NCBI RefSeq assembly: GCF_034314085.1
Contig: NZ_JAVIWI010000001.1
Location: 3,224,001 to 3,288,000 of the forward strand
Direction of reading: 5' to 3'
DNA length: 64,000 nucleotides
DNA from: Undibacterium sp. 5I1
GTDB lineage: Bacteria; Pseudomonadota; Gammaproteobacteria; Burkholderiales; Burkholderiaceae_D
Shown here: positions 11,924 through 36,912 of the stretch, one piece after another
Numbering within the stretch: the first letter of the stretch is position 1
Layout: every line of letters begins with the position of its first letter
Translations under genes and position numbers: made by a program
The notes under the pieces: model-generated
The model's input: only the letters and a program-made list of their open reading frames with translations
Databases searched by the model: none
Told to the model about the DNA's origin: nothing

Positions 11924-13932
<2,009 letters not shown>

Positions 13933-14052: not shown

Positions 14053-14138
14053 ATATACTCCCCATAAAATTTTAGCAATTAGGCTTGATGTCCAATCATT
14101 ATTTGGATGTCTAAAATATACTTACAGCAGTATATTTT
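14053..14138 (+). repeat. TACTCCC intergenic element, copy C
   Basis: 86 bp, 121 bases after the adenine deaminase stop. ATATACTCCCC at the left, inner GTCCAATCATTATTTGGAT, right end CTTACAGCAGTATATTTT. It shares 11 bases (GTCCAATCATT) with copies B and E. Confidence 0.82.
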
Positions 14139-14226
14139 CAATCACAAATTATCGCGGCAAAACAACGTCATATCAGATCGCATAAATTCAGATGCCCCCA
14201 ATTAAATTCGTAGTTAAATTTTAGGC

Positions 14227-14287
14227 AAAAAAAAGCCCGCAGAGTGTGCGGGCTGAAATCCAAACCTTTACGGTGTTGGAGGAGACA
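14227..14287 (-). ncRNA. candidate small RNA 1 (anti-Shine-Dalgarno type)
   Basis: Minus-strand unit of about 60 nt. A TATAGT box (14294-14299) with TTGTTT 16 bases upstream (14316-14321) gives a start near 14287. The RNA would begin UGUCUCCUCC, complementary to ribosome binding sites. It then folds CCAAcACC-GUAAA-GGUUUGG (seven pairs with one bulged C) and ends in a GCCCGC/GCGGGC terminator followed by eight U. Forty bases are identical to the second copy at 14511-14550. There is no ORF in it. It resembles the CUCCUCC-bearing cuckoo-type sRNAs, but I cannot confirm membership. Confidence 0.7.
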
Positions 14288-14484
14288 GGTGTAACTATAT
14301 CGCAGTGCAGCAAATAAACAAAACATTATTTTTGCATATCAATCATTCACAAAGCGAATATCAAATTACCGAGTCTTCCCTCTAAATTTTCCCTCAAAAT
14401 ATTACGCAACATCAAAGCGAATTTACTTCCATAGGAAAGCCCGTCATTTTCTATGCGGAACAAACTACTATTGATTTCATAGGC

Positions 14485-14549
14485 AAAAAAAAGCCCGCGA
14501 CCTTAAGGTTGCGGGCTGAAATCCAAACCTTTACGGTGTTGGAGGAGAC
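14485..14549 (-). ncRNA. candidate small RNA 2, tandem copy
   Basis: Second copy, 263 bases away, same strand. It has the identical 40-base core (14511-14550) with the CUCCUCC 5' end and the small hairpin. The terminator stem has diverged and lengthened (GCCCGCGACCTT/AAGGTTGCGGGC, 12 pairs with a wobble) before a run of U. The stem has changed in both arms while pairing is kept, which supports a functional RNA. The -10 is TAAAGT (14556-14561); the block TTGCTGCxCTGCGATA upstream is conserved in both copies. Confidence 0.7.
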
Positions 14550-14656
14550 AACTGAACTTTATCGCAGCGCAGCAAATAAGGCTGCTTTATTTTTCGTATA
14601 CCAGTCATTTCCAAAACACATAATGTTCATTTGGAGCAACAAGTTAATAAGTAGAA

Positions 14657-15679
14657 TTACCCACCGCTGGATTCATTTAAATGACATGCTGAAAAATGTT
14701 GCGGTGCTATCTCTCTGAGAGCGGGCTGTTCGACTGCGCAACGCGGCATGGCATGCGGACAGCGTGGATGAAAATAGCATCCAGCGGGTGGATTCAGTGG
14801 GGATGGAATTTCACCCTTAATGGCAAAAAATGTGGTTTTTTTCACCTCTAGCTTAGGTGCTGCGGCCATCAATGCTTGCGTATAAGGATGGTTGGCGTGT
14901 CCAAATATCTCTTCTGCAGGTGCCGACTCCACCACTTTGCCCAAATACATAATCACTACACGATCTGATAAATGGCGTACGACGCCAAGATCATGGCTAA
15001 TAAACAAATAAGTCAGATTCAATTCCTGCCGCAGCTGCATGAACAAGTTCAGCACTTGCGCCTGAATCGACACATCTAACGCAGCGACGGCTTCATCACA
15101 GACCAAAAATTCGGGCTTCACGGCCAGCGCGCGGGCAATTCCTATCCGCGCACGCTGTCCGCCAGAAAACTGATGTGGAAAGCGTCGTAAAACAGCGGGA
15201 TCTAAACCAACTCGCTGCAACAAATTTTCTACATAAGACTTTTGTTCAGAGCCTGAAATAATCTGATGTACAACAGGCGCTTCGCCAATAATGCCTTGCA
15301 CTCGCATACGAGGATTCAGCGATGCATACGGATCTTGAAAAATCATTTGTATGCCAAGCTGTACCTTGCGCTGCGCAGCGCGATCCATTTGCTTGACTTC
15401 TTGTCCTCGCCACCAACGCGATCCCTCAGACAACGAATGCAAACCGACCGCCATGCGTCCTAGAGTCGATTTGCCACAACCAGATTCACCGACCAGACCA
15501 ACCACCTCACCGGCTTGCACCACCAGATTCACTTGATCAACCGCGTGCACGGTCTGTTGCTGCATATTGGCACCAAACACATTGGCGATCTTGGCGGCGG
15601 TATCCAATGGTTTGACGAAACGTTTGCTGACATTGCGTAGCTCTAATATCGGTGTAGCGTCAGAGTGAATAATGCTCAT
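14657..15679 (-). CDS. oligopeptide/dipeptide ABC transporter ATP-binding protein (OppF/DppF type)
   Basis: 340 residues from the ATG at 15679, which overlaps the stop of the upstream ATPase gene (ATGA); the frame extends to 15766 but that would run inside the neighbour. Walker A GESGCGKST, signature FSGGQRARIGIARAL, Walker B FLVCDEAVAALD, and the C-terminal oligo_HPY region (HPYTQALMAAAP, then a Cys-containing CYFHPRCPHAMPRC). It energises peptide import with the other ATPase. It is the last gene of the operon SBP - permease - permease - ATPase - ATPase. Slightly unusual is DEAVAALD in place of DEPVSALD. Confidence 0.93.
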   Translation of the reverse strand: MSIIHSDATPILELRNVSKRFVKPLDTAAKIANVFGANMQQQTVHAVDQVNLVVQAGEVVGLVGESGCGKSTLGRMAVGLHSLSEGSRWWRGQEVKQMDRAAQRKVQLGIQMIFQDPYASLNPRMRVQGIIGEAPVVHQIISGSEQKSYVENLLQRVGLDPAVLRRFPHQFSGGQRARIGIARALAVKPEFLVCDEAVAALDVSIQAQVLNLFMQLRQELNLTYLFISHDLGVVRHLSDRVVIMYLGKVVESAPAEEIFGHANHPYTQALMAAAPKLEVKKTTFFAIKGEIPSPLNPPAGCYFHPRCPHAMPRCAVEQPALREIAPQHFSACHLNESSGG

Positions 15680-16686
15680 GCGACTAACTCGCTCTCTGCG
15701 GGTATTGGGTGAAAACAACGCACAGCGCGACCATCGATCTCTGTTAAAGCTGGCACATTGGCACAATCGCTCTGCGCCTGACTACAACGCTCACGAAAAG
15801 CACAACCGACTGGCAAGTTTAATAAAGAGGGTGTCATTCCGGGAATCTGATGTAAAGCCTGACCACGCGGGTTGCGTGACGGCGCCGAGGCGATCAAGCC
15901 ATAGGTATAAGGGTGACGTGGTTGGTTCAGCACTTGCTCCACCGTGCCGCTCTCAACAATCCGGCCAGCATACATTACGCTCACGGTATCGGCCAATCCG
16001 GCGATCACCGATAAGTCATGCGTGATCCAGATTAAGGAGGTACCGGATTCGCGGCAAAGTTTTTGCATCTCAAACAGAATTTGTCCTTGTATCGTCACGT
16101 CCAAGGCCGTTGTCGGCTCGTCGCAAATAATCAGATCAGGTTTATTCAGCAGAGCAATCGCAATCGCCACGCGTTGACGCATGCCGCCAGAAAATTGATG
16201 CGGATACGACATCAACCGCTCGTCCGGTGAAGGAATGCCTACCCGCACCAAAGCATCACGTGCCATTTCCATCGCAGCAGATTTACTTACTTTGTGATGG
16301 GCGAAAATGGCCTCGGTCATTTGCGTATCTATCCGCAATACCGGATTTAAAGTCATCATCGGATCTTGAAAAATCATCGCAATGCGGTCACCTCTTACCT
16401 GGCGCATTTGCTCTGCAGACATCGCCCGCAAGTCCTGACCTTTGAGTAAAATTTGACCACCCACGACTTTACCCGGCGCATCAATCAAACCCATGATGGA
16501 ATAACCGGTCATCGATTTGCCCGAACCAGACTCCCCCACTAATCCCATAATTTGACCAGGCATCACCGAGAACGAGACATCATTCACTGCGGTTGCTATT
16601 CCTGCGCGGGTATGGAATTCGGTCGTCAATCCTTCGACAATCAGAGTAGGTTGCGTAGGTTGCGTTGCTTGTTTTAGTTCTGGCAT
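15676..16686 (-). CDS. oligopeptide/dipeptide ABC transporter ATP-binding protein (OppD/DppD type)
   Basis: 336 residues. Start ATG at 16686 is preceded by AGAGGACGTG; a GTG directly before it is possible too. Walker A GESGSGKSM, signature FSGGMRQRVAIAIAL, Walker B LIICDEPTTALD, switch His in WITHDLSV, and the C-terminal oligo_HPY domain (HPYTYGLIASAPS, CAFRERCSQAQSDC). It forms a heterodimeric ATPase with the downstream gene product on the cytoplasmic face of the permease. It lies 10 bases after the second permease gene. Confidence 0.93.
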   Translation of the reverse strand: MPELKQATQPTQPTLIVEGLTTEFHTRAGIATAVNDVSFSVMPGQIMGLVGESGSGKSMTGYSIMGLIDAPGKVVGGQILLKGQDLRAMSAEQMRQVRGDRIAMIFQDPMMTLNPVLRIDTQMTEAIFAHHKVSKSAAMEMARDALVRVGIPSPDERLMSYPHQFSGGMRQRVAIAIALLNKPDLIICDEPTTALDVTIQGQILFEMQKLCRESGTSLIWITHDLSVIAGLADTVSVMYAGRIVESGTVEQVLNQPRHPYTYGLIASAPSRNPRGQALHQIPGMTPSLLNLPVGCAFRERCSQAQSDCANVPALTEIDGRAVRCFHPIPAESELVA

Positions 16687-36159: not shown

Positions 36160-36513
36160 TTATTCCATCACCCACACGAACGAGATATTGCTCCAGTTTT
36201 TGGCGACTAACTGAGCGGTCGCTACCGGCTTAAAATTGCATTCTTTTACCGCATTCAGTGACGCATTATCCAGACTGCGATGTCCGCTAGACTGGACTAC
36301 TTTGGCATCGACCACCTTGCCTGCGGCATCGGTTACAAACTGCAACTTGACCATGCCTTCTTCACTTTGGCTGAGTGATTTATCTGGATAAGCAGGCATT
36401 TCACAGTTCTTCGTATCGAAAGGACTTTTGATCTCTGCCGCGAATGTAGGAGCAGAAGCGACCGCCAGTAACAAGGCAGCAATGGCGTAGCAATGACGAG
36501 TAGTTGCAGACAT
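36160..36513 (-). CDS. minimal TonB C-terminal domain protein, periplasmic
   Basis: 117 residues. Cleavable signal peptide (cleavage near TFAA-E) followed only by a TonB_C-like domain: CEMPAYPDKSLSQSEEGMVKLQF, DAAGKVVDAKVVQSSGHRSLD, and a final strand ISFVWVME. There is no membrane anchor and no Pro-rich spacer, so it cannot be a conventional TonB. Strong CCGGAGG ribosome binding site. It lies upstream of the metallophosphoesterase/receptor genes. A soluble competitor or adaptor of TonB-receptor contact is one possibility (inference). Confidence 0.8.
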   Translation of the reverse strand: MSATTRHCYAIAALLLAVASAPTFAAEIKSPFDTKNCEMPAYPDKSLSQSEEGMVKLQFVTDAAGKVVDAKVVQSSGHRSLDNASLNAVKECNFKPVATAQLVAKNWSNISFVWVME

Positions 36514-36912
36514 AAAACCTCCGGGGAATGTGGTGAAATCAAATAAGAAGCAAATAAATGCGCGATAACAAAAGTAGATTTTTTAACGTTACATTTGCAG
36601 CAAAACCGCTCTTGGTGACTTCAATATACTGCAGTGCACAAATCTATAAAAATTGATTATTCGTATAGGAGATATTCGCAAAAACCATATTAGTTGCCGC
36701 GCATCAACATGGTGCAATGGCATATAGCCAGGCTGGGGGATTTTTCTCAGATGGTGTGCAAATGCTGGCTGCACCGCACTATTGGCGTGCTTTTTATCCG
36801 AGTTGGTGCAAGATAAAAAGTGAAAGTCGCAGAGTAAATATTGTTGGAGTGTGTGTGAATTACGCACAGATTGCGTAAAGCTGGCGCGCTAACAAGTCGG
36901 TCTTAAGTCGCT

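Follow-up and report, generated by a model that had tools for sequence, protein, structure and literature searches.

Between an adenosine deaminase gene and a peptide transporter operon of Undibacterium sp. 5I1 stand two short repeated units on the minus strand, and the question that they raise is what kind of RNA they encode and what controls it. In this study, we analysed the 64,000-nucleotide stretch of DNA that holds them (the window, whose positions are used below), together with the genome that it comes from and genomes of the genus and order. An earlier reading of the letters alone (the original prediction) had proposed tandem small RNAs (sRNAs) with an anti-Shine-Dalgarno 5' end, promoters of their own and, upstream, a possible operator.

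Two tandem RNAs of the RF02278 family

Read from the sequence, unit A runs from 14287 to 14227 and unit B from 14550 to 14485 on the minus strand, and both are tandem sRNAs of the kind proposed, with matches to RF02278, open 5' ends and -10 boxes. The start given earlier for A, 14287, held, whereas that of B lies at 14550 and not at 14549. The shared stretch, previously put at 40 bases, comprises 41 identical 5' bases in the alignment, UGUCUCC through GCCCGCA. The units and their neighbours are as follows.

12904..13932, plus strand: adenosine deaminase gene (PF00962), downstream neighbour, convergent
14227..14287, minus strand: sRNA A, RF02278 match (cmscan 50.7 bits, cut-off 50; fold z -4.19)
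14278..14287, minus strand: 5' end UGUCUCCUCC of A (sequence; first 7 nt unpaired in the fold and complementary to Shine-Dalgarno sequences)
14259..14280, minus strand: hairpin 1 of A, 5+3 pairs, loop GUAAA (fold, pair test in aligned RNAs)
14227..14254, minus strand: intrinsic terminator and U run of A (fold)
14485..14550, minus strand: sRNA B, RF02278 match just below the cut-off (cmscan 47.8 bits, E = 2.6e-8; fold z -4.35)
14541..14550, minus strand: 5' end UGUCUCCUCC of B (sequence, fold)
14522..14543, minus strand: hairpin 1 of B, same as that of A (fold, pair test in aligned RNAs)
14485..14517, minus strand: intrinsic terminator and U run of B (fold)
14657..15766, minus strand: oligopeptide/dipeptide ABC transporter ATPase gene (PF00005, PF08352), upstream neighbour, same direction

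A and B are firmly identified as members of RF02278 (Betaproteobacteria toxic sRNA, the "double-hairpin" RNAs; covariance-model cut-off 50 bits). All of the family hallmarks, the 5' UGUCUCCUCC, a hairpin and a terminator with a U run, are present in both, and the predicted fold of each leaves the first 7 nt of the 5' end open, continues with a hairpin of eight pairs interrupted by a one-base bulge and closes with a GC-rich terminator followed by a U run, none of 200 shuffles being as stable for either unit. In A and B, the loop of the first hairpin lacks the second CU-rich stretch that is usual but not required by the model; it reads GUAAA, in contrast to UCCUAA in most of 20 chosen and aligned siblings from the genus. 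This leaves chiefly the 5' end free to pair. Across these 20 RNAs, residues G2-C9 of the 5' end do not vary and standard pairs fill 94.6% of the pair cells, compared with at most 52.2% when partners are slid. Two-sided changes are seen at three pairs, a number that 10 of 500 shuffles reach, and in seven cells (0 of 500), while the number of further pair types among the same RNAs is not above that of shuffles (316 of 500 reach it). The two-sided changes lend support to the compensation that had been claimed for the terminators, whereas A and B alone show little of it, since their GCCCGC/GCGGGC pairs are common and the differences between them are mainly apical.

Other Rfam matches fell far below their cut-offs (Bp1_781, 25.2 bits against 80; anti-hemB, 22.3 against 49.5; also Trp_leader and Pseudomon-1/ErsA). 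A resemblance to cuckoo-type RNAs, which are alphaproteobacterial and have CUCCUCC-type loops, had also been suggested. Kinship with them finds no support, as the units belong to RF02278, and RF00519 (MmgR/suhB), the one such alphaproteobacterial family to turn up in the scan, gave 18.2 bits against a cut-off of 41. A role as part of a known mRNA leader is ruled out as far as can be seen, because each unit has its own terminator and there is no minus-strand ORF of at least 60 aa between B and A. Beyond A, the only such ORFs start at 14078 and 14065; they lie ~150 nt farther on than the terminator of A, in antisense orientation to the adenosine deaminase gene.

The genome itself has five RF02278 matches at three places. 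One of these, C1:2987105-2987353, is again a tandem; its two RNAs are diverged relatives scoring 36.6 and 32.1 bits, their anti-Shine-Dalgarno ends have changed, and no PhaR-like site was found there. The family was detected in 49 of 60 relatives searched and, by the covariance search that had been advised, in 98 of 150 genomes of the order, and by our own count 25 of 36 genus genomes have at least two matches within 1 kb. A pattern scan yielded six stretches: three in Undibacterium, two in one Oxalobacteraceae MAG and one in Noviherbaspirillum. Nine matches, the most per genome among the matches listed for the order, occur in a genome of the same family (G060).

A PhaR/PhbF-like site upstream of the -10 boxes

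The -10 boxes and upstream block that had been described as conserved are found in both units, as TATAGT/TAAAGT and TTTGCTGCRCTGCGATA, respectively. The promoter features are listed here.

14294..14299, minus strand: -10 box of A, TATAGT (exact-distance count across genus RNAs)
14300..14312, minus strand: PhaR/PhbF-like operator of A, TGCTGCACTGCGA (phasin matrix 6.6 bits, 13th best place in the 64-kb window)
14316..14321, minus strand: possible weak -35 of A, TTGTTT, spacer 16 (by eye, unscored)
14334..14346, minus strand: conserved upstream element of A, ATGATTGATATGC (near-fixed distance in the genus; own-genome search)
14556..14561, minus strand: -10 box of B, TAAAGT (sequence; 5 nt before the RNA)
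14562..14574, minus strand: PhaR/PhbF-like operator of B, TGCTGCGCTGCGA (phasin matrix 8.2 bits, 9th best place in the 64-kb window)
14596..14608, minus strand: conserved upstream element of B, ATGACTGGTATAC (near-fixed distance in the genus; own-genome search)

By eye, no -35 as good as TTGTTT of A was seen for B. The conserved element sits 46-59 nt before the RNA in the genus and is possibly an activator site; allowing at most one mismatch, ATGAYTGRTATRC occurs at 63 places in the genome compared with 19 for the reversed control, and two exact copies outside the window appear to be unrelated.

The block before the -10 boxes has the form TGCTGC-N3-GCGA. The operator of PhbF (PhaR) in Herbaspirillum seropedicae is TG[N]TGC[N]3GCAA, and this repressor is reported to bind PHB granules in vitro and to be pulled from solution (PMC3206438). 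The operator suspected before the promoter is a probable one, with the form of a PhaR/PhbF site. Promoters of phasin genes in the genus carry the same motif, often twice, and a matrix was built from the 29 strict sites, 19 of them distinct, that 16 of the 28 phasin promoters examined contain, two of 30 loci being left out as incomplete and no sRNA sequence being included in the training. Both window sites are weak by this matrix, their right half being GCG instead of the consensus GCA. The singleton RF02278 RNA of the same genome has a 16.0-bit site, and its phasin site, itself part of the training set, scores 28.8 bits. There is one phaR and one Hfq in the genome. Elsewhere in the window, plus-strand PhaR-like sites at 36623 and 36688 (18.1 and 11.6 bits) lie 65 bp apart, near the phasin-promoter spacing, and precede an ORF with a TonB-C domain on the minus strand (36160..36513), possibly another target of PhaR.

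For comparison across the order, sites of at least 8 bits were sought in the ~130 nt before 217 RF02278 matches with DNA, 91 from 26 of the 36 genus genomes searched for the family and 126 from 80 other genomes; weak matches are mostly omitted from this sample, and the RNAs of other genera are from among the matches listed. Sites precede 68 of the 91 genus RNAs and 59 of 97 RNAs in other genera with phaR, but only 2 of 29 RNAs from genomes without it. By genome, the proportions are 24/26 in the genus, 44/59 in others with phaR and 2/21 without phaR, where for nine of the 21 "without" means absent among the phaR matches listed and assumes the same 150-genome sample in both searches. The difference persists by genus (35/45 against 2/14) and by family (21/26 against 2/11; Fisher p = 6e-4), although such tests overstate independence and their p values are inflated, since phaR and the site both follow phylogeny.

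Several controls accompany these counts. No site was found in the 141 nt before SRP RNA (0/30) or 6S RNA (0/30), for the best 30 matches of each, 37 of these 60 RNAs being from phaR-bearing genomes. When the matrix was set aside, the published motif TGnTGCn3GCA occurred near 31 of the 97 RNAs in other genera with phaR and far from 8, and the core TGCn3GCA near 55 and far from 17, whereas four control cores occurred near only 1 to 7 of the 97. The corresponding values in genomes without phaR were 2/29 near and 1/28 far for the motif, and 5 and 3 for the core. Among the 97 RNAs, the bin 76-100 nt before the RNA holds the most site centres (29), followed by 51-75 nt (12), 26-50 nt (10), 1-25 nt (6) and 101-125 nt (6), with 1-3 in bins farther upstream and 0-5 in downstream bins; singleton RNAs have their PhaR-like site farther upstream. 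A first, cruder test (6 bits, 60-nt windows) had given a weak result for other genera with phaR (20/97 against 51/582 control windows), with 65/91 against 41/546 in the genus and 1/29 against 1/172 without phaR. Its control windows were not clean, as they took in neighbouring array copies and the sites that leader-bearing RNAs have at 60-130 nt, and the position profile and the SRP/6S controls were picked after its result was known.

The correspondence with phaR is incomplete in both directions. No site of at least 8 bits precedes 38 of the 97 RNAs, and 15 of the 59 phaR-bearing genomes have no near site; six of the 15 are of the phasin type described below and nine are not, two of the nine being just under 8 bits. 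Conversely, two RNAs of genomes lacking phaR have matches of 10.5 and 9.3 bits, and within family f43 one genome (G122) has phaR and no site while another (G078) has a site and no phaR.

A physical connection to the PHB genes was found in seven genomes, in which an RF02278 match lies 0.26-1.1 kb from a phaR domain and divergent to phaR; as they belong to three families only (f22, f29 and f42), they represent few independent events. In the six from f22 and f29 (L247-L252), the RNA starts 0-66 nt 3' of a phasin gene, with PF09361 found in all six ORFs preceding the RNA (in one at 25.1 bits, barely above the cut-off of 24.9), and the stretch before the phasin gene, which it shares with the divergent phaR, carries PhaR-type sites. 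This RNA, with the predicted start GUCUCCUCC, is probably a phasin 3'-region sRNA. The seventh genome (f42) has two PhaR-type sites 58 bp apart, as in phasin promoters, directly before the RNA. Variation also exists within arrays, as the last copy in three of them (G006, G007:C3 and G015) keeps the -10 box and the upstream element and has no TGC block. The core promoter can therefore occur without the block, and sibling RNAs within an array may be wired differently. Loss from the last copy is not general, as A, the last copy in the window, keeps the block.

Function of A and B and competing explanations

Taken together, the sequence comparisons make control of the RF02278 family by PhaR well supported and that of the window copies A and B moderately so. 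Our preferred reading, to which we assign a probability of roughly 70%, is that A and B are PHB-responsive RF02278 sibling sRNAs that damp carbon uptake and catabolism upon granule formation. Its starting points, namely family membership, predicted structure, operator-like sites and the tie to phaR and phasin genes, come from the analysis itself. We infer from them that PhaR represses the promoters of A and B, and, in Undibacterium, that it binds there and that the RNAs are induced and take effect. A and B would be trans-acting siblings, each with its own promoter, which free PhaR at the operator just before the -10 box would hold off. When PHB granules form, under carbon excess with growth limited otherwise, they would draw PhaR away, the sRNA and phasin promoters would open together, and the short RNAs would accumulate alongside the phasins. 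The open 5' end UGUCUCC would then pair with ribosome-binding sites of mRNAs, probably with Hfq, so that synthesis of transporters and catabolic enzymes would fall and uptake would be braked once carbon is stored. This suggests a function for A and B in Undibacterium in restraining feeding after carbon reserves have been laid down. As a search of the genome for mRNA starts with a long complement gave one place, no target list backs that function.

An alternative that we consider unlikely retains A and B as RF02278 siblings and takes the TGC-rich block for an unusual promoter element or for a place where a different regulator binds, the RNAs responding to starvation or stringent signals rather than to PHB, as reported for the NmsRs (RelA). 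The low scores of the window sites (6.6 and 8.2 bits) would fit, as would the further conserved element at 46-59 nt, the nine phaR-bearing genomes with neither site nor phasin arrangement, and the rise of NmsR in a relA deletion of N. meningitidis (PMC5362039). However, in form the block agrees with the published PhbF operator and with phasin promoters, the frequency of sites differs with the presence of phaR (59/97 against 2/29, and 0/60 for control RNAs), and RF02278 is linked to phasin or phaR genes in seven genomes.

Considerably less probable is that A and B are released mainly from the 3' end of the peptide transporter operon by read-through and RNase E, with their promoters playing a minor part. 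They do follow, in the same direction, a dpp-type peptide ABC transporter operon whose last gene, the ATPase gene, ends at 14657, and the transporter gene adjoins the array in four other genomes (G004, G011, G019 and G035; most loci are too short to judge). Processing by RNase E out of a longer RNA is reported for S17 of B. pertussis (PMC11722255), and some relatives stand behind phasin genes. Against this, TATAGT/TAAAGT stands exactly 6 nt before the RNA in 57 of the 91 genus RNAs by a strict count, in which B is placed among 29 "others" because its -10 box lies at 5 nt, and A, behind B, keeps its own promoter even though B ends in a terminator. That A and B are decayed duplicates without function is very improbable, for although B is below the Rfam cut-off and the loop lacks the CU-rich stretch of most of the 20 aligned siblings, the 5' end, stems, terminators and -10 boxes are all retained, and two or more matches within 1 kb recur in 25 of the 36 genus genomes.

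The preferred reading of A and B as PHB-responsive siblings can be extended to the family as a whole, a wider reading that we hold to be about evenly balanced: RF02278 would be the RNA arm of the Burkholderiales PHB-storage response, including an origin in the phasin 3' region, the NmsRs as freed descendants and MmgR as parallel wiring. In most sampled phaR-bearing families, RF02278 would be made from a PhaR-operated promoter or lie behind a phasin gene, probably on the phasin mRNA, and granule formation would free a general anti-RBS brake on carbon uptake. The family may have begun as a phasin 3'-region RNA from which copies later spread to stand alone. The Neisseria NmsRs would descend from such RNAs and have escaped PhaR when it was lost, and the alphaproteobacterial MmgR would be a separate, parallel case of an sRNA placed under PhaR. 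Should PhaR govern the family, the quantity of polymer in store would act directly on a widespread post-transcriptional brake on carbon uptake. The induction published for glucose medium, biofilm and starvation would agree with this, PhaR would become a candidate for the repressor that is postulated for S17, and bioplastic yield in non-pathogenic producer strains could be influenced by this route.

Comparison with known systems

Members of RF02278 are reported to be toxic to E. coli when cloned and to carry CU-rich anti-RBS stretches (PMC5688073, PMC4603805, PMC7011215, PMC11722255, PMC10987360). Overexpression of ncS27 slows growth, predicted or affected targets of the family lie in transport and carbon metabolism, and levels of the RNAs are described as higher in biofilm, starvation and glucose medium (PMC5688073, PMC4603805, PMC7011215, PMC10987360). 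The anti-Shine-Dalgarno mechanism is therefore not new, and the pairing with ribosome-binding sites expected by the original prediction agrees with this published reading. For A and B, RBS pairing, growth attenuation, Hfq, RNase E and PhbF granule binding would apply by analogy, being transferred from papers on relatives. What appears to be new here is the recognition of the upstream "operator" as a site of PhaR/PhbF form. Among the open-literature papers listed, none was found to connect RF02278, or any named member of it, with PhaR or PHB, and subscription papers may do so.

The Burkholderia cenocepacia RNAs ncS03, ncS05, ncS27 and ncS62 resemble A and B in covariance-model match, anti-RBS 5' end, intrinsic terminator and multiple copies. 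A and B differ in having one CU-rich stretch only and in standing in tandem, which the Burkholderia copies are reported not to do (PMC5688073). An upstream motif common to three of the four copies is unexplained in the text of PMC5688073, which calls the regulator of their accumulation unknown; in contrast to the B. cenocepacia papers, we assign the upstream block to a PhaR-type site. Word searches of the text of PMC5688073, PMC11722255 and PMC4603805 gave no mention of PhaR, PHB or phasin.

The 5' region of Bordetella pertussis S17/S17S is an excellent match to RF02278 RNAs, and RBS pairing and Hfq are reported for it, but S17S arises from a 190-nt precursor through cleavage by RNase E and did not show similar toxicity in E. 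coli (PMC11722255). Its authors postulate an unknown repressor at the S17 promoter (PMC11722255), which may be PhaR.

The Neisseria RNAs NmsR / NgncR_162-163 are likewise tandem siblings with anti-Shine-Dalgarno stretches and metabolic gene targets (PMC5362039). A tandem pair in an order member without phaR (G079) weakly matches RF02278 (E 3.3e-5 and 1.3e-4) and, when anchored on the first published NmsRA landmark, fits two of the three remaining landmarks and not the last. This NmsR-like pair has neither phaR nor an operator-like site, whereas for the Neisseria NmsRs an effect of RelA is reported. NmsR-like RNAs with weak RF02278 matches were seen at L206 (G079), L266 (G160), L256 (G062) and L263 (G183). 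In the phaR-bearing family f27, a 10.3-bit PhaR-like site precedes the same 30 nt as in NmsR-like RNAs, compared with none in G079, and G160, which has no phaR, has a 10.5-bit match farther upstream of its NmsR-like RNA.

Two systems bear on the proposed regulator. The PhbF/PhaR regulon of H. seropedicae shares the operator form, repression and binding to PHB granules, and the PhbF promoters described in PMC3206438 are those of PHB-related genes, with no sRNA among them. MmgR (alpha-r8) of Sinorhizobium meliloti is an Hfq-dependent sRNA under negative control by AniA (PhaR), with a control dyad between the -35 and -10 of its promoter (PMC8401924). MmgR is alphaproteobacterial, and by its covariance model A and B are not members of its family; MmgR under AniA represents a precedent for the wiring proposed here, in which an sRNA would answer to the regulator of the stored polymer.
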